Assembly (NCBI GenBank): GCA_022709545.1 | Contig: JAKLIP010000001.1 | Location: forward strand, 124,001-188,000 | Length of the DNA stretch: 64,000 bases | Reading direction: 5' to 3' | From: Patescibacteria group bacterium | Lineage (GTDB): Bacteria; Patescibacteriota; Minisyncoccia; Moranbacterales; GWC2-37-73 | Shown here: positions 1 through 56,608 of the stretch, piece after piece | Layout: each line of letters opens with the position of its first letter | How positions within the stretch are numbered: position 1 is the first letter of the stretch | Notes under the pieces: generated by a model | The model's input: the letters and a program-made list of their open reading frames with translations, nothing else | What the model was told of the DNA's origin: nothing | Databases searched by the model: none | Position numbers and translations under genes: made by a program

Positions 1-1
1 A

Positions 2-1663: not shown

Positions 1664-1701
1664 GAAACAAAGCAATTTTTAATTAAATAAAAATTCAATA
1701 T

Positions 1702-1725
1702 TAAAACGGCTCAAATGCCGTTTTA
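1702..1725. terminator. Bidirectional terminator between convergent genes
   Basis: A perfect 9-bp stem (TAAAACGGC with GCCGTTTTA) and a 6-nt loop lie between two convergent genes. The A and T tracts flank the stem on both sides, so it can act in both directions. Confidence 0.75.
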
Positions 1726-1733
1726 AATTTTAC

Positions 1734-4238
1734 TTATTGTATTGAAATTGAAATCAATTCCGAAGAAGTTGTTATGTAGGCAAGTTTATTGATTTCGTCG
1801 ACTGAAAGTGAAGTCCCATTAGCTAAGGATTCATTAAAGTATTGTTTGATAATAGTGCCGTCGGTTTTATTATACTGAATTATCCTTGATTTTTTGGCAT
1901 CTAAAGCGTAAAGCGATGAAGAATTTATGTTTGTAAAAATCTTATCAAAATTGACTGGCGTATTGGAATTTTCCAGGGAGAAATCTTGTTTTTTGCCTTT
2001 AAATAATTTCAAAACGGAATTATTCTGGACGCAATAAATATTTTCATCAATCGTCATATCTGAAATTCCGCTCAAAGAAAGGTCTTCTTTGAGCCAGCTT
2101 GTTTTGTTTCCAAATCCGCCGGTTACCCTTGGATAACGGTAAATTTGATTGGTTTGTGGGTCAAGCATATAAATGTAGGTCAGGTATGTACCTATAAAGT
2201 AGCTAGAAATATTCTCTGAAAGGTTTATGTTTTCTGAAATGAATTTTGAAGAAACTGGGCTGAATGAAACAATTTTATTCTTATCGGTAACAATAAATAT
2301 TAGTGACAGATCTTTCATGAAAGTTGCTTTTGAAGATACGCCTGAATTTTCAGGCAGAGTGTATTCTTTTTGTTCTCCGTTGTTTATAATAATAACACTG
2401 TTTTTTGTAATGCCAGCTATACCATTATTTGTAACCATTGCGTTTATCAGATCGTTGCGAGACAAGATAATTTGCTTCTGTGTTGAAAGGTTAATATTTT
2501 TTTCGCTGGACAAAATTTCCGAAAGAGTTGGCTGAGCATTTTCCAGCTCGTTTATTGTGGGAATTTTTGTCCTATTCATCCACTTAACAATAAAAATAGG
2601 CCCAATGAATATAATTATAAGAGCCAAGAGAGTATATATTTTCTGGCTATAAGAAAAAGAAGAAAACAGTCTTTTTATTTTTGAAAAATGGGGGATAAAT
2701 CCATATACCTTTTTGGCATCGCTAACATTTATTTGTTTTATTTTCTCATATGCTTTGATCGCTAAATTACGTACATATGCGGATATTTTACCTAGAACAT
2801 TAATAATTTTATTTGCTATTTTCTTAAGAGCAGAAACAAAAATAGCTATCCTTGATTCTTTTTCTTCATTTTCTACTACATTTGTGGGCTTATTGTTTTC
2901 TTCAATAGTGATTTTTCGTTCTTGCTCTACTGCAATTTCAAGTTTTTCCTTAAAAGTTAGTTCTTGAGGTTTGCCTGATATTGTTATTTCTTCAATTTTA
3001 ACAATTTCTTCGATTTTTGGGGCATTATCAGGGGTTGCTGCTTCTTTCTCGTTCCGAGAAATCATTTCTTCATTTTCTTTTACTTCAAGCTCGAGTCTTA
3101 CATCATTCATGGCTTTTTCTGCTTGTTCTTTTTTTATTTTTTCTTTCAAAACTTGCAGTTTTTTCTCCTTCTCTATCCTTAGAAGTTGTCGTTTTTTTGC
3201 CAATTGTTTTTTATATAGTGAAAATCTCCTTTTTATATCATTTTTTGCAGAATACCATCCTTGAGCGATTTTTTCTTTAGTCATATCCCAATAAAGGTTT
3301 ATTCTTTTATTTTCATCGGATTCGTCATCTTCTCCCTGAACATAAATATGCCCAGTTTTTTTGTCGGTGTATTCATCCTCAGCTTTTTCTTTATTGCTAC
3401 CCTCATTAAATTGGCTCTCATTAATTTCTGATTGATTTTGTGATTTTATAAATGTCTTTTCGCTGAAAACGTTTCCTATAGGAGATATTTTTTTTCTGGA
3501 ACTGAAATTTTTGATTTCATTGGTAAGATTCGTGTCTGATATCTGGACAACCAAGGTTGCGATCAGTTCCAGTTGATTTGACAGAGCAGTTTTTAAAAGT
3601 TGAACGAATTTTTCTCCCTTGAAACGCTGAAAATTCTTTCTAAGTTCCGTAACGGAAAGAATATGAAAGATATCTTCTGATGTTATAAGTATCTGATCAA
3701 ATTTTTCAAGTCTTCCGCTTGAGACATTAATAAAAGTTTTAAGAGGATGAGGTTCTGGAAAGTCTGATGCAAGCCCTTCACTTAAATCAGTAAGCACAGT
3801 GTTTCTGTATAAGAAAATTTTTGCTTTACCTGAAACACTGAAGTGTGCATTATTCTTTTCCAAAACAAATATCGCAGCATCTAGTTTGCCTAGCCATTCA
3901 ATGTTGCCTTTATTAGCTATTTCTGAAAGCGCTAAATTAACTTTGTGAAGTGCGCTATCTAAGCTTTCGGCGACCGAACGTTTTGGATTATTGTAGTATT
4001 CTTTTTTTAAGGTTAAAGTCAGAAAGTTTACAATATATGCCGAATCTTTACTGTAATCTTTAATTTCAAAAAAACCTATAAGCGATCCAAGCGGTTGTTG
4101 GTATATGTTTTCTGGATAATATTCAAAAACCTCAACATAAGGCTTGAGTGAGGGATTATTTATAACTAAAACAGGTGAAATTGTTTTTTCCAGCTCCTTA
4201 AACACTTCTTTTTTATTGTTATGATTTCTTGAGGACAT
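1734..4238 (-). CDS. Membrane protein with PP2C-like (pseudo-phosphatase) domain and C-terminal propeller-like domain
   Basis: The 834-residue product starts at ATG 4238; a longer GTG frame exists from 4277 but has no good ribosome site and overlaps a TATAAT box. Residues about 30-230 have the strand pattern of a PP2C phosphatase, including a stretch ending FSVSGKAKIFLYRN that matches the usual VGDSRAYLYR segment, but the metal-binding Asp of the GD pair is replaced. A charged coiled-coil region follows (about 310-430). A single membrane helix lies at about 533-554. The C-terminal 270 residues are beta-rich with repeated short strands resembling a propeller sensor. Topology suggests a cytoplasmic PP2C-like domain and an external sensor. 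It may bind rather than hydrolyse phosphoprotein. Converges with the ATPase gene; palindromic element E1 lies just upstream. Confidence 0.6.
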   Translation of the reverse strand: MSSRNHNNKKEVFKELEKTISPVLVINNPSLKPYVEVFEYYPENIYQQPLGSLIGFFEIKDYSKDSAYIVNFLTLTLKKEYYNNPKRSVAESLDSALHKVNLALSEIANKGNIEWLGKLDAAIFVLEKNNAHFSVSGKAKIFLYRNTVLTDLSEGLASDFPEPHPLKTFINVSSGRLEKFDQILITSEDIFHILSVTELRKNFQRFKGEKFVQLLKTALSNQLELIATLVVQISDTNLTNEIKNFSSRKKISPIGNVFSEKTFIKSQNQSEINESQFNEGSNKEKAEDEYTDKKTGHIYVQGEDDESDENKRINLYWDMTKEKIAQGWYSAKNDIKRRFSLYKKQLAKKRQLLRIEKEKKLQVLKEKIKKEQAEKAMNDVRLELEVKENEEMISRNEKEAATPDNAPKIEEIVKIEEITISGKPQELTFKEKLEIAVEQERKITIEENNKPTNVVENEEKESRIAIFVSALKKIANKIINVLGKISAYVRNLAIKAYEKIKQINVSDAKKVYGFIPHFSKIKRLFSSFSYSQKIYTLLALIIIFIGPIFIVKWMNRTKIPTINELENAQPTLSEILSSEKNINLSTQKQIILSRNDLINAMVTNNGIAGITKNSVIIINNGEQKEYTLPENSGVSSKATFMKDLSLIFIVTDKNKIVSFSPVSSKFISENINLSENISSYFIGTYLTYIYMLDPQTNQIYRYPRVTGGFGNKTSWLKEDLSLSGISDMTIDENIYCVQNNSVLKLFKGKKQDFSLENSNTPVNFDKIFTNINSSSLYALDAKKSRIIQYNKTDGTIIKQYFNESLANGTSLSVDEINKLAYITTSSELISISIQ

Positions 4239-4256
4239 AATAGCCTTGTTTATAAT
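4229..4256 (+). promoter_or_regulatory. Promoter-like sequence in front of element E1
   Basis: TTGAGG, a 16-bp spacer and a perfect TATAAT point rightward toward the palindromic element beginning at 4286. The first bases overlap the start of the minus-strand gene. The TATAAT region is also nearly symmetrical, so a minus-strand promoter is possible. Confidence 0.4.
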
Positions 4257-4285
4257 AGGATTATACAAACATAGCACCTCAAGTT

Positions 4286-4374
4286 TACCTCCACGCCAAT
4301 TGGCGATTGCTTAGTTAAATTTTGCAAAACAAGCTAAAATTGCCCTTATATTCTCTCCGATTAGCGTGGAGGTA
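4286..4374. repeat. Palindromic element E1 (family of three)
   Basis: The arms TACCTCCACGCCAAT (4286-4300) and ATTAGCGTGGAGGTA (4360-4374) pair over 15 bp with one C-A mismatch and enclose 59 nt containing AAGCTAAA (4331-4338). Related elements lie at 10106-10212 and 13660-13753. On the plus strand each begins with a version of GTTTAYCYYCAYGCCAAT. All three lie in divergent intergenic regions. It could be a small RNA, a leader structure or a miniature transposable element. Confidence 0.65.
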
Positions 4375-4438
4375 TATCTGCATACATAATATAGTAATTT
4401 AATACTCTTTGCAACAAAAATATATAATACATAGGCAT

Positions 4439-4466
4439 TTTACTTTTTATATAGATGATATATAAT
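4439..4466 (+). promoter_or_regulatory. Promoter for winged-helix regulator gene
   Basis: TTTACT, 16-bp spacer and TATAAT (4461-4466). The transcript would have a leader of about 90 nt before the ATG at 4564. Confidence 0.5.
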
Positions 4467-4484
4467 GTCCTTAATGATAATAAT

Positions 4485-4529
4485 GGCCTAGCCAAGCTTT
4501 TTATGCGTTTGCAGGCTCATATTTAGGCC
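4485..4529 (+). promoter_or_regulatory. Stem-forming leader segment
   Basis: GGCCTA (4485-4490) pairs with TAGGCC (4524-4529), and AGCC with GGCT pair inside, giving a hairpin in the leader of the regulator gene at 4564. No riboswitch family was recognised. The rest of the intergenic region from 4375 is AT-rich without other signals. Confidence 0.35.
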
Positions 4530-4563
4530 TTAATTTTAATTAATTTTAATCTACACAAGGAAT

Positions 4564-5169
4564 ATGTCTGAAATTTTAGAAAAACTTTTTGGTTCAAAAA
4601 CCAGAACAAGGGTTTTGAGATTTTTTCTTCTTAATCCGGATAAGGAATTCAGAGCTACGGAGGTTTCCAAAAAAAATATGCTTTCTTCTGTGTCTGTAAG
4701 GAAAGAAATAAAAGAATTGAAAAAAATAAAATTTTTAGTTGAGCACAGAAAAAGAGGTGTAAAATTTTATGCTCTTGATAAAACTTTTTATCTTTATTTT
4801 GAATTAAAAAATTTATTTGCAAAATCTGCTTCTTCACCCCAATGCAAAAGCTTGGCTAAATTAAAAAATATAGGAGATGTAAAGTTGGCGCTTGCCAGTG
4901 GCATATTTCTGAATTATCCGAAAAGTAAGGTAGATATGATAATTGTGGCTAACAATGTCAGTCGTGGAAAATTAAAAAGCGTAATGAGCAGCCTAGAAGC
5001 TGAGGTTGGGAAAGAAGTAAGTTTTGTAATAATGAACAGTGATGAATTTAAGTATCGCATCGATATGCTTGATCGCTTTTTGATTGATTTTATTGAAGGC
5101 TCGCACATAGAATTGATAGACAAAATTCCAGGTTTTAAAAGATTTCTGCTTGGCCATAAAAAATATTGA
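4564..5169 (+). CDS. Winged-helix DNA-binding protein with nucleotidyltransferase-like C-terminal region
   Basis: The 201-residue product has an N-terminal winged helix (about residues 1-75). In it FGSKTRTRVLRFFLLNP is followed by a helix-turn-helix (RATEVSKKNMLSSVSVRKEI) and a basic wing (EHRKRGVKFYALD). This matches a class of small archaeal and CPR regulators. The second half (about 95-195) is alpha/beta with a pattern like minimal nucleotidyltransferase folds, but I see no intact GS...D-x-D catalytic signature. It is the first gene of a plus-strand run with rmuC 20 bp downstream. Likely a transcription regulator; target unknown. Confidence 0.6.
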   Translation: MSEILEKLFGSKTRTRVLRFFLLNPDKEFRATEVSKKNMLSSVSVRKEIKELKKIKFLVEHRKRGVKFYALDKTFYLYFELKNLFAKSASSPQCKSLAKLKNIGDVKLALASGIFLNYPKSKVDMIIVANNVSRGKLKSVMSSLEAEVGKEVSFVIMNSDEFKYRIDMLDRFLIDFIEGSHIELIDKIPGFKRFLLGHKKY

Positions 5170-5188
5170 AAAATAATAAATATTAAAT

Positions 5189-6274
5189 ATGCCTACACTT
5201 ATAGTCGCAGTTTTGTCTGTTTTGCTTTTAGCCGCTTTATTGTGGCTTGTTTTTGATTTGAAAAAAAAGATAGAAAGTAAAAATAGTGACAGGGAAGCTG
5301 CTATTATCCAGGAAAAATTATCAATGCTTTTGGATGAAAATCGCAGGCTTAGGGATAAAATGGATGAAAAACTCTCTGAAACTCATAGAGCTACTCAAGA
5401 GCAAATAAACCATACTATGCAAACTGTACAGGGTATAACAGGACAATCTGCAAAACAGATTGCTGATATGGTTTCCAGTGTTACCAAGCTTGAAGAAACT
5501 AACAAGCAAGTTGTAAATTTTTCAGCTCAACTGCAAAATCTTCAGGATATATTAAGAAACACAAAGCAGCGGGGGATACTGGGAGAATATTTCTTGGAAA
5601 CAACTTTAAAAAATGTTTTGCCTCCGGATAACTATAAAATGCAATATAAATTCAAAGACGGGGAAATAGTGGATGCGGTAGTTTTTGTGGGCAAAAGTAT
5701 TGTACCCATAGACTCAAAGTTTTCTTTAGAAAATTATGAAAAGATAGTAAATGCTGTCAATGAAGTTGAAAGGGAAAAATATGAGAAACTTTTTAAACAA
5801 GACCTCAAAAACAGAATTGATGAAACATCTAAATATATACGTCCTGATGAAGGAACTATGGAATTTGCTTTTATGTTTATACCCAGTGAAACGATATACT
5901 ATGATTTGCTTATGAGATCATCCCAGGTAAATTCTGCCGATCTTATAGAATATGCCTTTAATCAGAAGCATGTAATTATTGTTTCTCCAACAAACTTTTT
6001 AGCTTATTTGCAAACAGTTCTCCAGGGCTTAAGAGCTTTCCAAATTGAGGAAAATGCCAAGGAAATACGTACAAATGTTGAAAAATTAGGAAAGCACATC
6101 ATAGCCTATGAAGAGTATTTCAAAAAAGTAGGTAATAATCTAGGAACAACGGTCAATAGTTACAACGCAGCATATAAAGAGTTGGGTAAAATCGACAAGG
6201 ATGTTTCTAAAATAACTGAGAAAGAAAAAAAAATCGAACCTTTAGTATTGGAAAAACCTCATGAAATTATATAG
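5189..6274 (+). CDS. rmuC: RmuC family protein (DNA recombination)
   Basis: The 361-residue product begins with a membrane helix (residues 3-23), then a long coiled coil (about 25-120). The conserved RmuC domain follows (about 125-320) with characteristic stretches KQRGILGEYFLE, DAVVFVGKSIVPIDSKF and EFAFMFIPSETIYYDLL. RmuC proteins limit inversion or recombination at short inverted repeats and have a nuclease-like fold. Length and order of parts agree with the family. The end overlaps the next gene by 14 bp, suggesting co-translation. Confidence 0.92.
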   Translation: MPTLIVAVLSVLLLAALLWLVFDLKKKIESKNSDREAAIIQEKLSMLLDENRRLRDKMDEKLSETHRATQEQINHTMQTVQGITGQSAKQIADMVSSVTKLEETNKQVVNFSAQLQNLQDILRNTKQRGILGEYFLETTLKNVLPPDNYKMQYKFKDGEIVDAVVFVGKSIVPIDSKFSLENYEKIVNAVNEVEREKYEKLFKQDLKNRIDETSKYIRPDEGTMEFAFMFIPSETIYYDLLMRSSQVNSADLIEYAFNQKHVIIVSPTNFLAYLQTVLQGLRAFQIEENAKEIRTNVEKLGKHIIAYEEYFKKVGNNLGTTVNSYNAAYKELGKIDKDVSKITEKEKKIEPLVLEKPHEII

Positions 6275-6641
6275 CTTAATAATAAAAAAATTTTTTTTAA
6301 ATGAATTTTTTACAAGCGGAATAGTACATTGGGTATTCATAGGTTCGCTTGTTGTTAATCTTGCAAATTGGGGCTTAATTATTTTTTTTATAAGGCCGGT
6401 TGATTTTTTATTAATACTGCACTATAATGTGTATTTTGGAGTAGACATTATTGGGCCATGGTGGCAATTATATTTTCTGCCTCTAATAGGAATAATAATT
6501 CTTAGCATAAATACAATTCTTAGCTATCTTTTTTATCAAAAAAAAGAAAGAATTATTGCCCATTTATTAATGCTGGCAGCTTTTATATCACAGGTAGGAA
6601 TCACCATTGCTTCAGTAAGCATATTAATGATGAATTACTAA
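6261..6641 (+). CDS. Small multi-pass membrane protein of unknown function
   Basis: A 126-residue hydrophobic protein with about three or four membrane helices (around residues 22-45, 68-92 and 97-122). Its ATG lies inside the end of rmuC (14-bp overlap), and the GT2 glycosyltransferase begins 6 bp after its stop. The tight packing suggests a role with the membrane glycosyltransferase or phosphosugar transferase downstream. I do not recognise a family. Confidence 0.6.
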   Translation: MKLYSLIIKKFFLNEFFTSGIVHWVFIGSLVVNLANWGLIIFFIRPVDFLLILHYNVYFGVDIIGPWWQLYFLPLIGIIILSINTILSYLFYQKKERIIAHLLMLAAFISQVGITIASVSILMMNY

Positions 6642-6647
6642 GATCAT

Positions 6648-8336
6648 ATGTCTATTTTTTATTTTCCTGACCCTAAAACAACTGATTTACGTGATCATCG
6701 CATACAAAGAATATTAGAGATTATTCCGGGTTCTTTAACATGGGCCACTCTTATCGGGATGTTTCTGCTTTCATTTATAAAGCCGGTTTGGATGGCTGTT
6801 TTTATAATAATGTTTGATATTTATTGGATACTAAGGACTATTTTTATAACTTATTATTCAATAGCTGCCTATAATAAATTTAAAAATGGTAAAAGCACTG
6901 ATTGGTGGGAAAGATGCCAAAACATTGGTAATGCCGAAGAGTATCTTAAAAGTATTTCAGGAAAAATAAAATTATATAAAGACAGTTTGAGTGAAATTTA
7001 TTCTTTCTTTGAACGACGCAAGGTTAAAAAAGAGATTGAAAGATTAAAAAAATACAAAAAAGAAGTTGAACTAATTAATAAATCCGGAAATGAAATAATA
7101 GATTGGAGAAAAATTATTCATGTAGTGCTTTTTCCCACTGCCAATGAAGGAGCAGAAATAATAGAACCAGCAATTCAGTCTGTTGCAGAAGGAAATTTTC
7201 CTAATCAGCAGATAATCATTTTACTTGCTACGGAGGAAAGGGAAAATGAAAAAGATAGGCTTAAAAAAGTAAATTACCTAAAAGATAAGTTCAAGGGAGT
7301 TTTTCGTGACTTTATAGTCACAACCCATGAAGTTGTCGAAGGTGAAATGAAATGTAAAGCATCTAATGCAACATATGCGGCCAAAAAATTAAAAATCTAT
7401 CTAGATGAGCGGGGCATAGATTATAAGCGTGTTATTTTTTCTAATTTTGACTGTGATAGCGTTAGTCATCCGCAGTATTTTGCTGCTTTGACTTATGAAT
7501 ATATAACTAGTCCAGATCGACTCCAGATGGCTTATCAGCCTTTGCCCATGTATCATAATAATCTGTGGGATACCAATGCTTTTGTTAGAGTGATTGTTAC
7601 TAGTTCTTCTTTTTGGCATATGTTCCAAAGCACACGTTCTGAAATGGTAACATTTGCTTCTCACAGCGAAGCTTTTGATACACTTGTAAAAGTAAACTTC
7701 TGGCCAGTAAACATCATAAATGAGGATTCAATTATTTTCTGGAAATGCTTCTCTTATTTTCATGGAAATTACAGAGTAAAGCCTATTTATTTACCTGTTT
7801 CTTTAGATGCTGTTTTAGCGGAAACTTATTGGAAGACAATAAAAAATCAGTATAAACAAAAAAGGCGATGGGCATATGGAATTGAACACTTTCCTACTTT
7901 GATGCGGGCAATTTGGCCTGACAAAAAAATAAAATTATCGAAAAAAATTAGAGCAGGATTTGAAATGATTGAAGGTCACTGGTCTTGGGCAACTTCAGCT
8001 TTTATTTTAGCAATCCTTGGATGGCTGCCAGTAATAATAGGAGGATCTGAATTTAATCAAAGTGTAATTGCTCATAACCTGCCTTTTATTACTAGGTATC
8101 TTATGACTCTCGCTGCCACTGGTCTGGTTATCTCAATGTTTTTAAGCTTTTCTCTTTTGCCGCCACGTCCTGCAAAATATTCAAAGAAAAGGTATGTGTA
8201 TATGTTTTTACAGTGGTTTTTAGCTCCTATTATTGCACCGACTCTCGGGGCAGTTCCAGCCGTAGAATCTCAGACACGCATGATGATAAAAAAATATTTT
8301 GGTGAATTTTGGGTTACAGAAAAAATTAAAAAGTAA
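6648..8336 (+). CDS. Membrane glycosyltransferase, family 2 (cellulose-synthase-like)
   Basis: A 562-residue protein with two N-terminal membrane helices (about 30-75), a cytoplasmic GT-A domain and C-terminal helices (after about 440). Catalytic landmarks are visible: the strand ending VLFPTANEG, a DxD-type FDCDS near residue 266, an acceptor-site NEDS near 358 and QKRRW near 403, the QxxRW motif of processive GT2 enzymes. It would use a nucleotide sugar to build or extend a surface glycan. It sits between a small membrane protein and a WecA/TagO-type initiator, so a surface-glycan operon is plausible. An insert of about 60 charged residues (100-160) precedes the GT domain. Confidence 0.88.
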   Translation: MSIFYFPDPKTTDLRDHRIQRILEIIPGSLTWATLIGMFLLSFIKPVWMAVFIIMFDIYWILRTIFITYYSIAAYNKFKNGKSTDWWERCQNIGNAEEYLKSISGKIKLYKDSLSEIYSFFERRKVKKEIERLKKYKKEVELINKSGNEIIDWRKIIHVVLFPTANEGAEIIEPAIQSVAEGNFPNQQIIILLATEERENEKDRLKKVNYLKDKFKGVFRDFIVTTHEVVEGEMKCKASNATYAAKKLKIYLDERGIDYKRVIFSNFDCDSVSHPQYFAALTYEYITSPDRLQMAYQPLPMYHNNLWDTNAFVRVIVTSSSFWHMFQSTRSEMVTFASHSEAFDTLVKVNFWPVNIINEDSIIFWKCFSYFHGNYRVKPIYLPVSLDAVLAETYWKTIKNQYKQKRRWAYGIEHFPTLMRAIWPDKKIKLSKKIRAGFEMIEGHWSWATSAFILAILGWLPVIIGGSEFNQSVIAHNLPFITRYLMTLAATGLVISMFLSFSLLPPRPAKYSKKRYVYMFLQWFLAPIIAPTLGAVPAVESQTRMMIKKYFGEFWVTEKIKK

Positions 8337-8351
8337 AAGTATCAGTACATT

Positions 8352-9371
8352 ATGCAATTTTTTTTAATTCCATTCATCATTTCATTTATAATATCAGCAT
8401 CTTTTTTGGTGTTATTCGTTTTATTAAATAAAAAGAAGAACTTTAATGATGTGCGAACATCCGATCGGCATATACATAACCACGACATTTCTCGTTTTGG
8501 GGGAGTCGCACTTATTATTTCCTTTATAGCAACTCTTATTTTAAATAATGCTCTAGTTATAACTACTCCATTGAAGGGGATACTTTTTGCTTCAGTATTT
8601 ATATTAATTTTTGGAATTATAGACGACATGATAGAAATATCTTGGAAAATACAGCTTTTTTTCCAGGTAGCCATAATATTCTTTGTATATTTTATGGGTG
8701 TGCGCCTTCAATACATAACTAATCCCTTCGGGGGTATTTTTTTATTTGATGGACAGCTTAAATATTTTATTGGTTTTTTTATAATACTTGCCTGGATGTT
8801 GATTATAATAAATTCAATGAACTGGATTGATGGAATAGATGGAGCAAGCTCAGGAATAACATTGATAGGCGGAGCCGCGGTATTTATTTTGAGTCTTAGG
8901 CCTGAAGTAAACCAGCCTCCCATAGGCATAATTACAGCATCTTTAGTTGGAGGTGTATTAGCCCTGATGTTTTTTAATTTTTATCCTGCTAAAATTTTAG
9001 CCGGTACGAGCGGATCATTATTTATGGGTTTTATGCTGGCTGTTTTAGCTGTTTTTGCTGGCGCAAAAATAGCAACCACTCTACTGATTATGGCAGTTCC
9101 CGTAATAGATGCTTTTTGGGTAATAATCGAGCGTATTAGATCAAAAAGTTCCATATTTTCAGCCGATAAACGTCATTTACATTTCAGGCTCATAGAACTT
9201 GGATGGTCACAAAGAAAAATTTGTTTTTTTTATTATGCAATTACTGTTTTTATTGCAATTCTTGCTCTTAATACAAGAACAGTGGGAAAGACAGCAACGT
9301 TTATTTTATTCGTAATTGCTATGTTGAGTATGATAATATTAATCAAAAATAAAACTTCAAATAAAATATAA
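8352..9371 (+). CDS. UDP-sugar:polyprenyl-phosphate sugar-1-phosphate transferase (WecA/TagO/MraY family)
   Basis: A 339-residue polytopic protein with the family signature: IDDM near residue 90, the catalytic NSMNWIDGIDG near 152-162 and the cytoplasmic DKRHLHFRL (HxHxR type) near 272, which favours the WecA/TagO branch rather than MraY. It transfers a phospho-N-acetylhexosamine to undecaprenyl phosphate, the first step of surface glycan assembly. Gene order with the GT2 enzyme upstream supports this. The lipid carrier would come from the polyprenyl synthase and UppS genes at the far end of the window. Exact sugar unknown. Confidence 0.9.
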   Translation: MQFFLIPFIISFIISASFLVLFVLLNKKKNFNDVRTSDRHIHNHDISRFGGVALIISFIATLILNNALVITTPLKGILFASVFILIFGIIDDMIEISWKIQLFFQVAIIFFVYFMGVRLQYITNPFGGIFLFDGQLKYFIGFFIILAWMLIIINSMNWIDGIDGASSGITLIGGAAVFILSLRPEVNQPPIGIITASLVGGVLALMFFNFYPAKILAGTSGSLFMGFMLAVLAVFAGAKIATTLLIMAVPVIDAFWVIIERIRSKSSIFSADKRHLHFRLIELGWSQRKICFFYYAITVFIAILALNTRTVGKTATFILFVIAMLSMIILIKNKTSNKI

Positions 9372-9390
9372 AAATTTTCTAAGTCAACAT

Positions 9391-9414
9391 AAAACCCCGC
9401 AGTTGCGGGGTTTT
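9391..9414 (+). terminator. Rho-independent terminator
   Basis: AAAACCCCGC and GCGGGGTTTT pair perfectly over 10 bp with a 4-nt AGTT loop, 20 bp after the WecA-type gene. It ends the plus-strand run that begins at 4564. Confidence 0.9.
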
Positions 9415-9491
9415 ATTATTGAAAGAGAAATTTGATTTCCTTTTCTGGAAAGAACGGCTGTGTTTTGCAATAGCACGCGTTATGCTAAATA

Positions 9492-10082
9492 TCATGAGAG
9501 CGAAGATACGCGGGCGGAATATTTCTGTAGATTCTGAAGCTGTTTTTCGTTTAAGTTCTTAGACTGTGAGATAGCTTTTTGGATAAGATCTTTTGAGAAC
9601 TCAACAGAAGTTCCCACCTTAACTCCTCCGCTATGTCCCACATTTTTCCTTAAATAATCTTCTATATAGATCTTATGCTCATTGGTTAAAGCTGAATCCG
9701 GATTTTTTTCAAGATAATTTGCGGCAGCCCTTCTGGCAAGAATAGTCAATCCGTCTCCTTTAACTGCAGTTTCAATAAAGGCATCCTCTGTTTCCTTGCT
9801 CATATTTTCAGGAGAAACTGTTGTTTTGGCCTCGGTCACCTTTGTTGTTTGTGACTGATCACCGCTTAAGGTAGCTGATGAATTTTGTTCAATATCAATG
9901 TTTTTTGTAGACTCATCGTTGTTTGCTATATTAGACACTTCTCTTTTTGAATAAGAATAAATTCCTCCAGCAATAAGCATAACAATAATAATACTTATAA
10001 TAATGCGCAGGTTATCCTGAAACCATCTTTTAATGTCTTCAGATTGTAACTCTGATGGTTGTTCCGGCGTGTTTTCTTTCAT
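9492..10082 (-). CDS. Membrane-anchored protein of unknown function
   Basis: A 196-residue protein with a short cytoplasmic N-terminus, one membrane helix (about 27-45), a Ser/Thr/Asn-rich linker (to about 90) and a C-terminal helical domain. That domain has a stretch GDGLTILARRAAANYL that resembles LysM-like domains of CPR envelope proteins, but I cannot assign it. A good ribosome site (GGAAGG, 9 nt before the ATG) fixes the start. Element E2 lies only 24 bp upstream, and a promoter farther upstream gives it a leader of about 200 nt. Confidence 0.6.
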   Translation of the reverse strand: MKENTPEQPSELQSEDIKRWFQDNLRIIISIIIVMLIAGGIYSYSKREVSNIANNDESTKNIDIEQNSSATLSGDQSQTTKVTEAKTTVSPENMSKETEDAFIETAVKGDGLTILARRAAANYLEKNPDSALTNEHKIYIEDYLRKNVGHSGGVKVGTSVEFSKDLIQKAISQSKNLNEKQLQNLQKYSARVSSLS

Positions 10083-10105
10083 AAAGTCACCTTCCTTTCT
10101 AGTTT

Positions 10106-10212
10106 ATCCCCACGCCAATAATGCTTGTATCTTTTTTTATTAATATTTAATAAAAAAATAAAATTCATATACCTAGCCTAAGTATTTTTACAGGCACCAT
10201 TGGTGTGGGGAT
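10106..10212. repeat. Palindromic element E2 (family of three)
   Basis: The arms ATCCCCACGCCAAT (10106-10119) and ATTGGTGTGGGGAT (10199-10212) pair over 14 bp with one G-T, which is a G-U wobble if the plus strand is transcribed. The 79-nt interior is very AT-rich. Both sides are flanked by TTA or a close variant. It lies directly upstream of the minus-strand membrane protein. Confidence 0.65.
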
Positions 10213-10232
10213 TATTAGATAATTAATTGTCA

Positions 10233-10281
10233 AAGGACGCTTTCGTTGAAGCTTCATCCCGCCAAGGCGGGAAAAATCCTT
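10233..10281. promoter_or_regulatory. Three-way-junction-like structure in the leader of the 9492-10082 gene
   Basis: Read on the minus strand: AAGGA and TCCTT close a domain holding two hairpins, CCCGC-CTTG-GCGGG and GCTT-CAACGA-AAGC. It starts a few bases after the predicted minus-strand start site. It resembles a riboswitch or ncRNA layout, but no known family was recognised. It could also be an intergenic palindromic repeat. Confidence 0.35.
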
Positions 10282-10295
10282 CCCCTAGTCTTTTT

Positions 10296-10324
10296 ATTGT
10301 ATAGTAGCGTTATATCAGCGTCAA
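10296..10324 (-). promoter_or_regulatory. Promoter for the membrane protein gene (minus strand)
   Basis: Minus-strand TTGACG (10319-10324), 17-bp spacer, TACAAT (10296-10301). This is the same -35 hexamer and spacing as the mraZ promoter at 50605. Transcription would run through 10233-10281 and E2 to the ATG at 10082. Confidence 0.6.
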
Positions 10325-10629
10325 CTGGACAAAAATAACTATTTAGGGGCTAATATAAAGGCAAAAATAGATAAAAATTATAAAAATTTTTTACATAAAT
10401 TTATTTAAACTTAAGGAGATGATCTATAAAAAAATAAAAAATTTTATAATAATAAAAAGATGTCAAAACATTAAATTATTTTTTTAATTTTTTTTATTAT
10501 TTAATAACCCGATTTGTAATTAATTATTTAAATGTGTATTTTAAGAATAAAAAAATTCAAAAAGTATAGATTTATTTTTTAATAATTTTTTTATTTCAAA
10601 ATTTATTACCTGTGGATAACTTTTTTGCA
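10325..10629. other. AT-rich intergenic stretch with one DnaA-box-like site
   Basis: About 300 bp of very AT-rich DNA with no convincing coding frame. It holds one exact TGTGGATAA (complement TTATCCACA, the consensus DnaA box) at 10611-10619. A single box is not enough to call an origin. Confidence 0.4.
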
Positions 10630-10657
10630 TTGCTTTTTAAAAAATATGCGTTATAAT
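10630..10657 (+). promoter_or_regulatory. Promoter of the lysine-rich peptide gene
   Basis: TTGCTT (10630-10635), 16-bp spacer and TATAAT (10652-10657), giving a leader of about 95 nt before the ATG at 10760. Confidence 0.55.
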
Positions 10658-10759
10658 TATAGATAAGAAAAAAATATATTATATATTTTTTTGAAGTCGA
10701 TAATAAAAATAAAATTTGTTTTATAAAAACAAAAATTGCTAGAAGGAGGTGACTTACTC

Positions 10760-10852
10760 ATGGCTAAGAAAAAAGCAGCAAAAAAGAAAGTTGTTAAAAA
10801 AGCAAAAAAGAAAGTTGCTAAAAAGAAAGTTGCAAAAAAGAAGAAAAAATAA
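10760..10852 (+). CDS. 30-residue lysine-rich basic peptide
   Basis: A short frame of 30 codons with only Met, Ala, Lys and Val; most residues are Lys, arranged as AKKKV-type repeats. Coding is supported by a near-perfect ribosome site (AGAAGGAGGTGA, 8 nt before ATG), a good promoter upstream and a strong terminator downstream, so it is a stand-alone gene. Composition resembles histone H1-like tails and small nucleoid or RNA-binding peptides. Lys-rich repeats also occur in the tail of bL31 nearby. Function unknown; nucleic-acid binding is inference from charge. Confidence 0.75.
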   Translation: MAKKKAAKKKVVKKAKKKVAKKKVAKKKKK

Positions 10853-10910
10853 CTCTTTAGATTAAGTTTTTATTCTTTAGCTTCATCGTAAGTTAAGGAT
10901 ATAAACGAAC

Positions 10911-10936
10911 TAAAACCCCGATGTATCGGGGTTTTA
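10911..10936. terminator. Bidirectional terminator
   Basis: TAAAACCCCGA pairs with TCGGGGTTTTA around a short TGTA loop. It lies between the lysine-rich peptide gene and the convergent prmC gene and can serve both. Confidence 0.88.
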
Positions 10937-10950
10937 GTTTTGCCTGATAT

Positions 10951-11793
10951 TTACAGATAAATTTTGCATATTCTCCATCTTCCTGAAAAATCTTTTGTGA
11001 AAATTATTTTTGCTTCAGGAAAGGCATTTTTTGCTAATTTTTCAAGTTTTTCTTTCTGTTCTGGGCTGAATTCAAGCAGACAATTAAGGCTTATTGGTTT
11101 ATGTTTCTCGCGAATTTCAATTATCTGTTTTATTATTTTTTTATAATGGCTTAATCCATTCTCGCGACTATACAATGCAGATTTAGGCTCATATTTTTTT
11201 ATGTCATTGCTTACAGAGGAATATATTTTTTTTGAAAGATAGGGCAGATTGGCTATTATAATTAATTCCTTATTTTTAAATTTATTCAATAGCGGTTCTA
11301 ATAAATTTCCTTGAAAGAATTTTATTTTTTTTTCTACCTTAATTCTCTTTGCATTAAGTCGGGCGATCACTAAAGCCTTTTTTGAAATATCTATTCCAAT
11401 ATAATTATTTTTGTTTTTTATTTTTTTTGCCAGAGTTATTATAATATTTCCGCTTCCAGTTCCTACATCAACTATAGTTTTATTTTTCGGATTATTTTTC
11501 ATGATTTCCTCAACTAACAATTCAGTTTCTGGACGCGGTATTAAGGTATTTTTATTTACAATAAAATCCAAACCATAAAATTCCTTATGTTTCACTATGT
11601 ATGCAATTGGTTCATGTGCAATCCTCCTTTTAATTAACTTCATAATTAATGAGTTCTTATTTTTTGTTATAAAAAATTCTGGATATGTTAAAACAAATTC
11701 CCTCGTTTTTTTGAGGGAATAGGAGAGGATCAATTCTATATCCAAAAAATCCAGTTGTTTTCTATATAATTTTATTATATCTTTAATAGTCAT
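10951..11793 (-). CDS. prmC: Release factor glutamine methyltransferase
   Basis: A 280-residue class I SAM-dependent methyltransferase with an N-terminal helical domain (1-85), the substrate-facing segment LIPRPETELLVEEI, SAM motif I (VDVGTGSGNIIITLA) near residue 115 and the acidic IGIDISKKAL. The catalytic NPPY motif reads NLPY here (about residue 180). The enzyme methylates the GGQ glutamine of release factors. Its position 15 bp after prfA on the same strand is the standard arrangement and supports the assignment despite the motif change. Confidence 0.9.
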   Translation of the reverse strand: MTIKDIIKLYRKQLDFLDIELILSYSLKKTREFVLTYPEFFITKNKNSLIMKLIKRRIAHEPIAYIVKHKEFYGLDFIVNKNTLIPRPETELLVEEIMKNNPKNKTIVDVGTGSGNIIITLAKKIKNKNNYIGIDISKKALVIARLNAKRIKVEKKIKFFQGNLLEPLLNKFKNKELIIIANLPYLSKKIYSSVSNDIKKYEPKSALYSRENGLSHYKKIIKQIIEIREKHKPISLNCLLEFSPEQKEKLEKLAKNAFPEAKIIFTKDFSGRWRICKIYL

Positions 11794-11808
11794 TTTAATT
11801 GAAAATCT

Positions 11809-12876
11809 TTAGATTTTTGCAGACATTTTAAGTTTCATATCTTCTTCCTGTAGGGCGCTTATTATGGGCTCTAAATCACCGCTTAAAATTCCTTCAATAT
11901 TGCTCCATGACTGTTTAATACGATGGTCTGTTATACGATCCTGCGGATAATTGTAAGTCCTTATTTTTTCACTGCGGTCACCAGTTCCGATCTGATTTTT
12001 ACGAGCTTCTCCAAGCTCTTTGGCCTGTTTTTCTTCCTCTGCCTGAAGCAAACGGGAACGCAGGACTTTCATGGCCTTATCCTTGTTTTTTAATTGCGAT
12101 TTTTCGTCCTGGCAAGAAACAATCAATCCGGTCGGAATATGTGTAATGCGCACGGCACTTTTAGTTGTATTAACAGACTGTCCTCCGGGCCCGGAAGAAC
12201 AAAAAGTATCAATTCGCAAATCTTTTTCTTCAATTTTTAATTCAACTTCTTCCGCTTCGGCCAAAACGGCAACAGTTGCGGTTGAAGTATGTATGCGTCC
12301 CATTTTTTCCGTTTCTGGCACGCGTTGAACGCGATGAACTCCAGATTCAAATTTCATTTTGCTATAGACTCCATTTCCATTTATTTCAAAAACTATTTCT
12401 TTAAATCCTCCTAGCTCAGTCTGATTAGAGTTAAGCACGGAAACTGACCAGGATTTTTTTTCAGCATATTTTGAATACATTCGGAAAAGGCTGGCGGCAA
12501 AAAGTGCTGATTCATCTCCGCCGGCGCCACCGCGGATTTCTACGATAACATTTTTTTCATCGTTTGGGTCTTTCGGAAGCAGTATCATTTCAAGTTCTTT
12601 TTCAATCTTGTCTTTTTGTTTAACTAATTCCATATTTTCTTCCATAGCCATTTGTTTCATTTCTGCATCTTCTTCCGTGTTCATAATTTCTGCATTATTT
12701 TTCATATCATTTTGAATTTTTTCAAACTGTTCTATGAGATTCATGATTCCATGAAGTTCTGACTGTCTTTTCCCGAGTTTAGCCATTTTTTGCGGATCAG
12801 AAAGAATCTCAGGAGAGCTGAGTTCGGCGGTAATAGCTTCATATTCATTTTTTATCGATTCTAATTGATTTTTCAT
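11809..12876 (-). CDS. prfA: Peptide chain release factor 1
   Basis: A 355-residue protein of normal RF1 length. The GGQ motif lies in [13 protein letters not shown] near residue 228. RF1-type [22 protein letters not shown] is present, followed by the conserved C-terminal [13 protein letters not shown]. It reads UAA and UAG and triggers release. First gene of a prfA-prmC pair. Together with prfB at 34629 it shows that all three stop codons are read as stops here. Confidence 0.97.
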
Positions 12877-13028
12877 AAATCTACGAAATTATAAATCTAT
12901 TACGAATATACAAAAATACAAAAATGTTCATTTTTATTGTATTTATGGATATATTCAATATATAAGTTTAATTTAAATAAAGCAACAGTAATTTAAATAA
13001 CTATTTATTTAAAAACAAGTAGCATTTT

Positions 13029-13175
13029 ATGGCAATAGCAACAGGAATTGCAAGGGTTACCGCATGGAGAAATGATAAATACCCGTTTATAAATTGTCGG
13101 GGCATGGTTATTCCTCTGCCAAATTTCAGAAGGGAAATTTTAATAAAAAGAAGAGTTAAAAAATCTAAAAAATAG
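13029..13175 (+). CDS. 48-residue basic small protein of unknown function
   Basis: The ATG at 13029 opens a 48-codon frame ending in TAG at 13175. The product has a mixed, protein-like N-terminal half (ARVTAWRNDKYPFINCRG) and a basic C-terminus (KRRVKKSKK), resembling a tiny ribosomal or RNA-binding protein. It is followed by a terminator shared with rpmE. No strong ribosome site is visible, as with many genes in this window. Not recognised as a named family. The balanced composition and the terminator argue for a real gene. Confidence 0.5.
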   Translation: MAIATGIARVTAWRNDKYPFINCRGMVIPLPNFRREILIKRRVKKSKK

Positions 13176-13202
13176 GTAAAATTTTGCTAAACAGCAAAAA
13201 TA

Positions 13203-13229
13203 AAAAGGGATGCCCAAGGCCTCCCTTTT
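13203..13229. terminator. Bidirectional terminator
   Basis: AAAAGGGA pairs with TCCCTTTT around a GC-rich loop, with A and T tracts on both sides. It separates the small plus-strand gene from convergent rpmE. Confidence 0.75.
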
Positions 13230-13241
13230 TTGCTATAAAAT

Positions 13242-13520
13242 TTATTTTTTCTTTGCTTTCTTTGCCTCATCTTTCTTAGTTTTAGACTTCTTTGTTTTTG
13301 AAGCAGCTTTTTTGGTAGCTGATTTTTCGGCTAATTTCTTAAAGCGGTCAACGCGTCCGGTAGCATCTACCACCTTCTTTTTACCGGTATAAAAAGGATG
13401 ACAAGCACTGCAGATTTCCACATGCATTTCTTTCTGGGTAGAACCGGTATGAAGTACTGCTCCGCATGAACAGATTATTTTGGCATTATCATGATATTCT
13501 GGATGAATATTTTTTTTCAT
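13242..13520 (-). CDS. rpmE: Ribosomal protein bL31 with lysine-rich tail
   Basis: A 92-residue protein. The first 65 residues are a zinc-type bL31: IHPEYHDN, cysteines at 17, 19, 37 and 40 (CSC and CSAC), then [20 protein letters not shown]. The last 27 residues are an extra tail of Lys, Ala, Ser and Thr absent from shorter homologues. Divergent from rpsB across a 384-bp region that carries E3. Confidence 0.95.
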
Positions 13521-13618
13521 ATAATTTTAAAATGGCCCAAAAATTAAGAATTTTTATACCCTCCTAAATATTAGATAGGTAAAAGAGTACCTAAATACCT
13601 TAGCATATAAAGATGAAA

Positions 13619-13646
13619 TTGACAAGGGTCGTGTTTCTGCTATACT
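13619..13646 (+). promoter_or_regulatory. Strong promoter upstream of E3 and rpsB
   Basis: A perfect TTGACA (13619-13624), a 16-bp spacer and TATACT (13641-13646). The predicted start site, near 13653, lies only a few bases before the left arm of E3, so E3 would form the very 5' end of the transcript. Confidence 0.75.
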
Positions 13647-13659
13647 GAATAGCGTGTTT

Positions 13660-13753
13660 ATCCTCATGCCAATCAGGCTATGTTAAACTATAAACATATG
13701 CTTAAAATAAGCTAAATAGGTTACAATAAATATAATTCAGCTATCATGAGGAT
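13660..13753 (+). repeat. Palindromic element E3 (family of three), at transcript 5' end
   Basis: ATCCTCATG (13660-13668) and CATGAGGAT (13745-13753) pair perfectly over 9 bp. The left side extends as CCAAT, as in E1 and E2. The interior contains GCTTA-AAA-TAAGC and AAGCTAAA (13709-13716), shared with E1. It sits between the promoter and the rpsB leader. Confidence 0.65.
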
Positions 13754-13772
13754 TAATTATTAATAAAAAACA

Positions 13773-13846
13773 TACTTTTTCGGGGCAGGTCCTGCTTGTT
13801 TGCATTTTTGCGGACACGTTTTCTGTCTAATTTTAAAGAAAAAGTA
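13773..13846 (+). promoter_or_regulatory. Structured rpsB leader
   Basis: TACTTTTTC (13773-13781) and GAAAAAGTA (13838-13846) pair perfectly over 9 bp and enclose small hairpins (GCAG/CTGC and GACA/TGTC). Its position about 58 nt before rpsB suggests autoregulation by S2 or another leader control. It does not obviously match the known proteobacterial rpsB leader. Confidence 0.5.
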
Positions 13847-13904
13847 GATGGTCGCGCAATATCAGCCATTCGGTTTGTATTATGTGCGATAAAAAGGAAA
13901 AAAT

Positions 13905-14666
13905 ATGGAAAATGACGAAAAACAAGCTGTGACTACAACAGCCAATGAAAATGTATTTGTAGAAAATTATTTTTCAAAACTAGATTTATCAAAAATCGAA
14001 GTCAGTCTCGAAGAAATGATGAAAAATGGTGTTCATTTTGGACATCAAAAAGCGCGAAGGAATCCAAAAATGGATGAATATATATTTACGACTAGAAAAG
14101 GTATAAACATAATAGATCTAGAGAAAACACAAGAAAAAATCAAACAAGCTTTAGAATTCATACAAAGCATTAAAAAAAGCGGAAAAAAAATTCTTTTTGT
14201 AGGGACAAAAATTCAATCTAAAAATTTAGTGCGTGAAGTTGCTGAAGCTTCGGGCATGCCTTTTGTTAGTGAGCGCTGGCTTGGAGGTACTTTTACAAAT
14301 TTTAAAGTTATCCGCACAAGAGCAAGATATTTAGTTGACAATGAAGCTATGCTTGCCAAGGGAGAGTTCAAGAAATATACAAAATTCGAACAGATGAAAA
14401 AAATTGAAGAACTAGAAAAAATGGAAAAAAGAATGGGTGGAATAAAAAACATGTCTGAACTTCCCGGGGCTATATTTGCGGCAAGCGTTAAGGAAGATAG
14501 TTTAGCGATTGCTGAAGCTAAAAAGATGGGAATTCCTGTTATTGCTATTGCGGATACAAACGTAAACCCAGAAAACATAGATTATCCCATTCCTGCAAAT
14601 GATGATGCTATATCATCACTGCGCCTGATTCTTGCTTATGCATATAAAGCAATATTGGAAGCTTAA
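13905..14666 (+). CDS. rpsB: 30S ribosomal protein uS2
   Basis: A 253-residue S2 protein with an N-terminal extension of about 35 residues. It keeps the family stretches GVHFGHQKARRNPKM, FVGTKIQSKNLV, FVSERWLGGTFTNF and the C-terminal PVIAIADTNVNPENIDYPIPANDDA. It binds late to the small subunit near S1. It is followed 35 bp later by tsf, the standard pair. The leader carries E3 and a second hairpin domain, so expression is probably controlled at the RNA level. Confidence 0.97.
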   Translation: MENDEKQAVTTTANENVFVENYFSKLDLSKIEVSLEEMMKNGVHFGHQKARRNPKMDEYIFTTRKGINIIDLEKTQEKIKQALEFIQSIKKSGKKILFVGTKIQSKNLVREVAEASGMPFVSERWLGGTFTNFKVIRTRARYLVDNEAMLAKGEFKKYTKFEQMKKIEELEKMEKRMGGIKNMSELPGAIFAASVKEDSLAIAEAKKMGIPVIAIADTNVNPENIDYPIPANDDAISSLRLILAYAYKAILEA

Positions 14667-14701
14667 AAATAAGAATTAAGAATTAGAAATGAAACAAAAA
14701 T

Positions 14702-15280
14702 ATGTTGGATCTTATCAAAAAAATCAGAGAGCGTACTGGAGCAGGCGTGGTTGCAATAAAAAAAGCTATTGATGAGGTTGGTATGGATGAGGAAAAGGTT
14801 ATAGAACTGCTTCGCAAATCAGGAGAAAGTAAAGCTGCTAAAAAAGCTAGCAGGGAGGCTAAAGAAGGTGTTGTTGCGTCTTATGTTCATTCAAATAATC
14901 GTGTAGCTTCATTAGTAAAGCTTCTTTGTGAAACAGATTTTGTTGCCCGTAATGAAGAATTTAAACAGCTGGCCAAAGATATTGCAATGCATGTTACTGC
15001 TATGAATCCGAAATTTATTAAACCAGAAGATGTTTCTGATGAAATCATAAATAAGGAAAAAGAAATATGGAAAGCCCAATTAATAACGGAAGGCAAAAAC
15101 CCTGAAATGATTGAAAAAATAATGGTAGGCAAGGAGAAAAAATTTCGTGAAGAATCAGCTCTTTTGACACAGTCTTTCGTCAAAAATCCCGATATTACGA
15201 TAGGAGAATTGATTATTGAAAAAGTAGGGAAGATAGGAGAGAATATACAGGTTGGAGAAATAATCCGTTTTGAATTGTAA
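14702..15280 (+). CDS. tsf: Elongation factor Ts
   Basis: A 192-residue EF-Ts, shorter than the E. coli protein but typical of compact versions. The N-terminal UBA-like domain reads IRERTGAGVVAIKKAIDEVG, and the core has VASYVHSNNRVASLVKLLCETDFVARNEEF. The C-terminal part ends GENIQVGEIIRFEL. It exchanges GDP for GTP on EF-Tu. In operon with rpsB. Confidence 0.97.
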   Translation: MLDLIKKIRERTGAGVVAIKKAIDEVGMDEEKVIELLRKSGESKAAKKASREAKEGVVASYVHSNNRVASLVKLLCETDFVARNEEFKQLAKDIAMHVTAMNPKFIKPEDVSDEIINKEKEIWKAQLITEGKNPEMIEKIMVGKEKKFREESALLTQSFVKNPDITIGELIIEKVGKIGENIQVGEIIRFEL

Positions 15281-55967: not shown

Positions 55968-56039
55968 GCCACCATCGTCTAGCGGCTAGGACGCCAGGTT
56001 CTCATCCTGGTAACCGGGGTTCGATTCCCCGTGGTGGTA
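55968..56039 (+). tRNA. tRNA-Glu (CTC)
   Basis: Acceptor GCCACCA/TGGTGGT (closing G-T), anticodon stem CCAGG/CCTGG with loop TTCTCAT (anticodon CTC), T arm CGGGGTTCGATTCCCCG. CCA not encoded. Its 3' end starts a 40-bp repeat. Confidence 0.93.
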
Positions 56040-56076
56040 CGCGATAAAAATAAGGCTTGCTTGAGCCTTATTTTTT
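56037..56076 (+). repeat. 40-bp direct repeat, copy 1 (contains tRNA-Glu terminator)
   Basis: Begins in the last three bases of tRNA-Glu and includes a terminator hairpin (AATAAGGCT/AGCCTTATT). An identical copy lies at 56569-56608, 532 bp downstream. Confidence 0.9.
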
Positions 56077-56568: not shown

Positions 56569-56608
56569 GTACGCGATAAAAATAAGGCTTGCTTGAGCCT
56601 TATTTTTT
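56569..56608 (+). repeat. 40-bp direct repeat, copy 2
   Basis: Exact copy of 56037-56076 without the tRNA. The DNA between 56453 and 56568 has no clear gene; a short minus-strand frame there (56438-56539) is probably chance or a remnant. TTGGAACCAA (56095-56104) and TTGGTTCCAA (56543-56552) lie just inside the two copies in opposite orientation. Confidence 0.9.

Follow-up and report, generated by a model that had tools for sequence, protein, structure and literature searches.

What are the three short palindromes that lie between genes in a 64,000-nucleotide stretch of a Patescibacteria group bacterium genome (GenBank assembly GCA_022709545.1, contig JAKLIP010000001.1, positions 124,001 to 188,000; hereafter the window)? 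A first-pass annotation, made from the letters alone, had offered small RNAs, a shared class of leaders or a miniature transposable element as explanations for these sequences, here called E1, E2 and E3. We consider it likely, at roughly three chances in four, that they are old copies, without an open reading frame (ORF) and resembling miniature inverted-repeat transposable elements (MITEs), of a mobile element with two inverted arms and an interchangeable middle, whose autonomous form would encode a GIY-YIG nuclease. The jumping element is previously undescribed.

We find the left arm TTTAYCYYCAYGCCAAT without mismatch at exactly three places in the window, 4284, 10103 and 13657, which bears out the proposal of three palindromic elements with a common left arm; the cores could be refined, with TTTA directly 5' of each. 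For comparison we used G005, the closest syntenic relative compared, whose ribosomal protein S2 is 80% identical and which keeps the gene order of window positions 1-14800. The features are as follows, with no strand assigned to elements and flanks.

4284..4287: E1 left flank TTTA, at the position of a 4-bp target site (sequence; TNNA duplication established at the family level)
4288..4372: E1, palindromic element of 85 bp without ORF, arms CCTCCACGCCAAT / ATTAGCGTGGAGG (sequence, folding, not at the syntenic G005 locus)
4373..4376: E1 right flank TATA, degenerate relative to TTTA (sequence)
10103..10106: E2 left flank TTTA (sequence)
10107..10211: E2, palindromic element of 105 bp, arms TCCCCACGCCAAT / ATTGGTGTGGGGA (sequence, folding, G005 comparison)
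10212..10215: E2 right flank TTAT (sequence)
13619..13646, plus strand: rpsB-operon promoter TTGACA...TATACT, outside E3 (kept in G005 without the element)
13657..13660: E3 left flank TTTA (sequence)
13661..13752: E3, palindromic element of 92 bp in the 5' leader of the rpsB operon, outer arms TCCTCATG / CATGAGGA (sequence, folding, G005 empty site)
13753..13756: E3 right flank TTAA (sequence)
13905..14666, plus strand: rpsB (ribosomal protein S2), host gene 3' of E3 (Pfam PF00318, 1.4e-79)

None of the three elements is present at the syntenic G005 loci. The E3 site is clean, reading AGCGT-TATTATTAATTAACAAAAAAC in G005 against AGCGTG-[TTTA-E3]-TTAATTATTAATAAAAAAC in the window, and looks as an unoccupied target should, and at the E2 site G005 carries ~45 unrelated nucleotides instead. 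Empty sites in relatives had been named beforehand as favouring a mobile element, and this comparison came out for mobility. In G005, where E3 is absent, both the promoter TTGACA..TATACT and the leader next to it are preserved, and the promoter therefore belongs to the rpsB operon: E3 does lie just 3' of a near-consensus promoter, as described earlier, but that promoter is not its own.

All three intergenic elements adjoin a minus-strand gene, as had been noted. The description of their surroundings as divergent is right for E1 and for E3, which sits between rpmE (L31) on the left and rpsB (S2) on the right, but not for E2, which has a minus-strand gene on the left and, on the right, just a short plus-strand lysine-rich ORF (10736-10852) and then a minus-strand gene. 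Their shared orientation counts for little in a palindrome, which has no strong orientation. RNA folding z-scores against shuffled sequence are -5.0 (E1), -7.3 (E2) and -2.5 (E3), and -5.3, -6.5 and -3.1 for the complementary strands; because both strands fold comparably, we read E1-E3 as DNA palindromes and not as strand-specific RNAs. Good pairing in the E3 arms is confined to the outer ~9 bp, and the right arm of E2 matches the family core exactly over CCCCACACCAAT.

The three copies turned out to be an undercount. Defining membership by arm sequence, and resting copy counts on pattern searches, we obtained a family scheme of TTTA-CCCCCACACC(AAT)...(ATT)GGTGTGGGGG-TNNA, in which interiors are mostly unrelated from copy to copy. 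A search allowing one or two mismatches returned at least six further copies in this 1.02-Mb genome, with arms TTTACCCCCACACCAA, making at least nine in all:

C1:53115-53213, further copy (arm search)
C1:61012-61136, further copy (arm search)
C1:84294-84596, further copy with a GIY-YIG ORF (arm search)
C1:320505-320630, further copy (arm search)
C10:341670-341783, further copy (arm search)
C10:173711, further copy, degenerate (arm search)

Among 57 relatives searched, G020, an order-level genome with contigs corresponding to Bacterium BMS3Abin15, holds ~30 copies. An exact scan with CCCCCACACCN{60,90}GGTGTGGGGG across one genome per species gave at least 118 stretches, the named ones mostly from Patescibacteria; the non-Patescibacteria matches listed come from a few metagenome-assembled genomes (MAGs) of groundwater or lake sediment (Phycisphaerae, Deltaproteobacteria, Margulisbacteria, Nitrospinota) and, in a handful of cases, from high-GC genomes. 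The high-GC matches (Mycobacterium, Nonomuraea, Novosphingobium and similar) showed mixed frame behaviour and were taken as chance. Of 380 genomes drawn evenly from the phylum, 9 carried an exact copy and none the reversed control pattern, a patchy occurrence that fits a mobile element. An internal motif common to E1 and E3, AAGCTAAA, had been pointed out earlier; a k-mer search over 143 interiors yielded no family-wide motif, and the words enriched there appear to stem from recent multi-copy families. In another relative (L089, G007:C10), an arm-like GG(T/C)RTGRGG recurs every ~150 bp at least 12 times as a tandem array.

Insertion leaves a trace at the family level. Of 119 non-identical copies, 44 have the same 4 bases directly 5' of the left arm and directly 3' of the right arm; 2000 shuffles gave 11.5 on average and never more than 21. 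Exact repeats of 5 bp occur twice and of 6 bp never among the 119 copies, and shorter lengths show no comparable excess, so that the signal lies at 4 bp; the duplicated sites are mostly TNNA (TTTA, TAAA, TATA, TTCA, TTAA). Near-identical copies at several sites, with interiors 93-96% identical, were found in one Andersenbacteria MAG and one Deltaproteobacteria MAG and not in the window's own genome, where the copies are old. The marks of a MITE seen here are terminal inverted repeats, a target duplication at the family level and near-identical multi-site copies in two MAGs outside the order.

A protein candidate for this mobility lies between the arms themselves. Elements consisting of arms and one 84-aa GIY-YIG ORF, and nothing else, occur once in this genome (C1:84294-84596), once in G008 and twice in G020, with Pfam PF01541 matches of 1e-16 to 1e-18. 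In these 297-303-bp elements all complete ORFs between the arms are GIY-YIG, and no transposase is found there. We compared the two flanks of each of 72 GIY-YIG genes, taken from this genome and order-level relatives, counting inverted-repeat scores of at least 14: terminal inverted repeats flank 31 of the 72, against 1.4% of mismatched flank pairs and 6 of 167 control small ORFs. Arms no more than 30 bp from the ORF ends were seen for 25 GIY-YIG genes and 2 control ORFs. Whole elements mostly measure 285-312 bp, and their arms vary by nuclease subfamily (CCCCCACACCTAATC, CCCCGCACTAACTTT, TCCCTCACCACTTTT, TTTACCCTGTTAAATAA, CCCGGTAGTGAAAATTC and others), each internally matched. Residues of the GIY-YIG active-site type (Y5, Y16, G18, R26, H30, E62) are conserved in 96-100% of the 72 proteins. 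PF01541 matches and catalytic-type residues place the coding relatives, and not E1-E3, in the GIY-YIG family.

These subfamilies bear on the arms in the window. The mirrored arm changes reported among E1-E3 are real, and would fit arm subfamilies, or arm-to-arm correction during palindrome replication, better than RNA covariation; the subfamily explanation of the kept pairing draws on the fact that GIY-YIG elements with entirely different arms have matched arms too.

One GIY-YIG element with perfect terminal arms (L104, G034:C9) interrupts a 16S rRNA gene after GCAAGTCGA, as located by BLAST; the same gene has other large gaps between matched blocks, at about reference positions 65-199 and 432-447. 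At another locus (L090, G000:C10:81213-81413), a GIY-YIG gene with arms TACCCGCCCGC..CCAGC follows MKILVTGGAGF of a truncated epimerase start and adjoins a complete epimerase gene, which looks like a partial copy of the target beside the element. A third (L102, G027:C1:494183-494434) lies at the 5' end of tRNA-Ala(CGC), where the arm appears to partly restore the acceptor strand.

Many copies sit inside conserved protein genes, and there the lengths are constrained. Hosts include PriA, ThiI, YchF, PheT, FolD, YebC, YbeY, an NDP-sugar epimerase and glycosyltransferases (names read from sequence; FolD, YebC, YchF and PriA confirmed). In the order-level set, 12 of 12 protein-internal copies have an arm-to-arm length of 2 mod 3 and are stop-free, the core plus the 4-bp duplication being divisible by 3; lengths of intergenic copies spread over all three residues. 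In the broad set, with the high-GC chance matches set aside, 11 of 11 are in frame, and four more loci are possibly frame-breaking. Given this rule, the protein-internal copies appear to be translated, as ..PHT(K/N)....GVGV(K/N).. or, in another frame, ..FTPTP...; in FolD of G028 the insertion is exactly 10 aa relative to PDB homologues. In-frame extra peptides of the ..PHT....GVGV.. kind in Patescibacteria proteins should accordingly be annotated as inserts. The rule also disposed of a mariner-like TA duplication, as the TTA/TA flanks might suggest, because the rule needs core + 1 or core + 4 and the peak of the direct repeats lies at 4 bp and not at 2. Insertion at TT^AA without duplication was dropped after the repeat test on 119 copies.

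Three G020 genes (YchF, YebC and PriA; L066, L061, L062) carry extra in-frame inserts (..PARNATPARNAVSTAGWHSVAGG.., ..PRRLASLNRGEQAGG.., ..ARLPSPDGLPACASQWQAGS..) that are probably coding palindromes of a different family. Elements with unrelated interiors occupy the same glycosyltransferase codon in two families of the order (L060 in G020, L083 in G001), by either repeated insertion at one site or a very old insertion with a drifting interior.

At nine loci the middle is a complete tRNA, and in all nine it lies inside an interrupted outer tRNA of the same identity, outer identities having been read by eye and two of the loci (L227 and L276) looking like one event. They comprise Arg(GCG) in an outer Arg(GCG); Ala(CGC) in an outer tRNA of Ala type that has G3:U70; Val(GAC) nested with Val-type tRNAs to a total of three layers; Thr(CGT) within two nested Thr(CGT) halves; same-identity nestings of Thr(TGT), Gly(CCC) and Met(CAT); and a further Gly case for which the contig holds no more than the outer 3' half. 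More than one nesting layer is present at L187 and L093. At L006 and L008, a 74-nt outer tRNA is regained when the core and 4 bp are taken away, and at some loci pairing has been lost in the outer tRNA but not in the inner one, which is intact. Inner and outer stems differ, so a recent duplication does not account for the inner tRNA. The 48 tRNA matches of this genome include no Arg(GCG) other than the inner one and the interrupted outer one. Replacement is the simplest reading, in which the insertion would be tolerated since the incoming element carries a tRNA of matching identity; if so, this would be a natural example of an element that destroys a gene and itself provides the substitute. 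For annotation, tRNA finders miss or misread nested tRNAs of this kind.

From these observations a mechanism can be sketched. Arms of ~10-20 bp of the CCCCCACACC type would enclose the middle, and the putative autonomous form, ~300 bp long, would be an arm, one 80-90-aa GIY-YIG ORF and an arm. The GIY-YIG protein would mobilise its own element and act in trans on ORF-less copies, with insertion at TNNA-like sites and a 4-bp target duplication. Copies would survive where they are tolerated: between genes, as for E1-E3, in rRNA loops, in protein genes if core and 4 bp together make up a stop-free multiple of three, and in tRNA genes if a tRNA of the same identity comes with the element, the inner tRNA presumably replacing the outer one in function. 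Whether all of this forms one minimal class, with a ~300-bp GIY-YIG form between arms, a 4-bp duplication, MITE-like palindromes tolerated in frame by essential genes and replacement tRNAs that 'destroy and rescue' in successive layers, we judge to be an even bet.

The main rival holds that E1-E3 are MITEs moved by an ordinary insertion-sequence transposase encoded elsewhere, with the GIY-YIG gene as cargo or hitch-hiker. DDE insertion sequences leave a 4-bp duplication and terminal inverted repeats, just as the TNNA duplication and arms here, and ORF-less copies outnumber GIY-YIG copies; yet the only complete ORFs between the arms of the 297-303-bp elements are GIY-YIG, and many GIY-YIG subfamilies each possess distinct arms immediately at the ends of the ORF, which is hard to obtain with random cargo. 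We therefore hold this rival unlikely. Rather less probable is that the family consists of RNA introns or intervening sequences excised from transcripts via the hairpin, which would bring the ends together. Copies do interrupt tRNA and 16S rRNA genes, and intervening sequences cut by RNase III are known in bacterial 23S rRNA (PMC11270868). The in-frame, stop-free copies in protein genes (12/12 and 11/11) would be needless for an excised RNA, which rules this explanation out for them; several outer tRNAs are decaying with the inner one intact, and in the window, which holds E1-E3, Rfam showed neither a group I nor a group II intron. For rRNA copies, RNase III excision may still hold.

Structured RNAs, whether leaders or small RNAs, with selection acting on the hairpin, were suggested by the strong folds, the mirrored arm changes and the position of E3 just after the rpsB promoter. 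Such RNAs are now very improbable and largely refuted, since the elements are absent from the syntenic G005 loci, both strands fold equally, gene contexts are unrelated and the family occupies coding, tRNA and rRNA sites; a search of the 64-kb window at Rfam gathering thresholds returned tRNAs only, with no RNA family and no group I or II intron core. The small-RNA and shared-leader proposals of the first-pass annotation lose their support with this and with the promoter being kept without E3, whereas its miniature transposable element gains support from the additional copies, the family-level TNNA duplication, the empty G005 sites and the nuclease-coding relatives.

Several observations weigh against the GIY-YIG-driven mobile element that we favour. 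Exact 4-bp repeats are not clearly enriched among order-level copies (7/43 against 3.9 expected), which look older, and the flanks of E1-E3 themselves are only T..A-like, the exact duplication being seen at the family level. The absence of E1-E3 in G005, which is not of the same genus, could be loss. E1-E3 arms differ from CCCCCACACC at 1-4 positions, so these elements may form a sister subfamily. Clear arms are missing from about half of the GIY-YIG genes, some of which may be unlinked or decayed. To our knowledge, GIY-YIG homing enzymes are not transposases of terminal inverted repeats, and a 4-bp duplication would need a new mechanism or a partner.

Among known systems, Rickettsia palindromic elements (RPEs) are ~150 bp long and lie in frame inside protein genes, where they are translated as extra peptides (PMC10969869); the parts of that review drawn on here name no mobility gene. 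The present family resembles them as short palindromic repeats (~30-130 bp) that lie in frame in protein genes and between genes, E1-E3 themselves being intergenic. It differs in sequence, in freely varying interiors, in a nuclease-coding relative with the same arms and in tRNA-nested copies, and NCBIfam RPE models matched neither two insert peptides nor three host proteins, FolD being judged on the best 25 of its 32 matches. Like MITEs, the family is short, ORF-less and multi-copy, with terminal inverted repeats and a target duplication; unlike them, its putative parent carries GIY-YIG with no transposase found, some copies carry tRNA cargo and interiors are mostly unrelated. With repetitive extragenic palindromes and their associated tyrosine transposases (REP/RAYT) and with IS200/IS605 it shares dispersed hairpins dependent on an enzyme encoded elsewhere and a T-rich target beside the hairpin, but it has a true 4-bp duplication and GIY-YIG between the arms; no HUH/Y1 transposase was seen there, although no search aimed at it was made. 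Split and intron-containing archaeal tRNA genes are likewise interrupted in loops, with a GC-rich helix joining the halves, but here the host is bacterial, the insert is a complete tRNA of the same identity and the outer tRNA often decays.

In rRNA genes of the candidate phyla radiation (CPR), unclassified GIY-YIG insertions, neither group I nor group II, and short ones (<200 bp) have been described, with no mention of palindromes or inverted repeats and with GIY-YIG said to seem outside homing spread (PMC11270868). The interrupted 16S rRNA gene at L104 is such a case with perfect terminal arms, and on its basis we propose that the published GIY-YIG insertions belong to this element class.

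This would offer those insertions an identity, and the many small GIY-YIG genes in ultra-small Patescibacteria genomes a reason. We know of no candidate mobilising enzyme for palindromic elements such as those of Rickettsia; ORF-less palindromes with ends in common with GIY-YIG-only elements provide one that is directly testable.

Three further observations concern the window. A non-coding block at 10216-10262 (ATAATTAATTGTCAAAGGACGCTTTCGTTGAAGCTTCATCCCGC) is 93.6% identical to G005, far above its surroundings. Identical 40-bp terminator-like repeats (GTACGCGATAAAAATAAGGCTTGCTTGAGCCTTATTTTTT) lie at 56037-56076 and 56569-56608, the first starting at the end of tRNA-Glu(CTC). Finally, a 42-bp unit recurs in five diverged copies ~100 bp apart at 60256-60891 and is probably a coding repeat.

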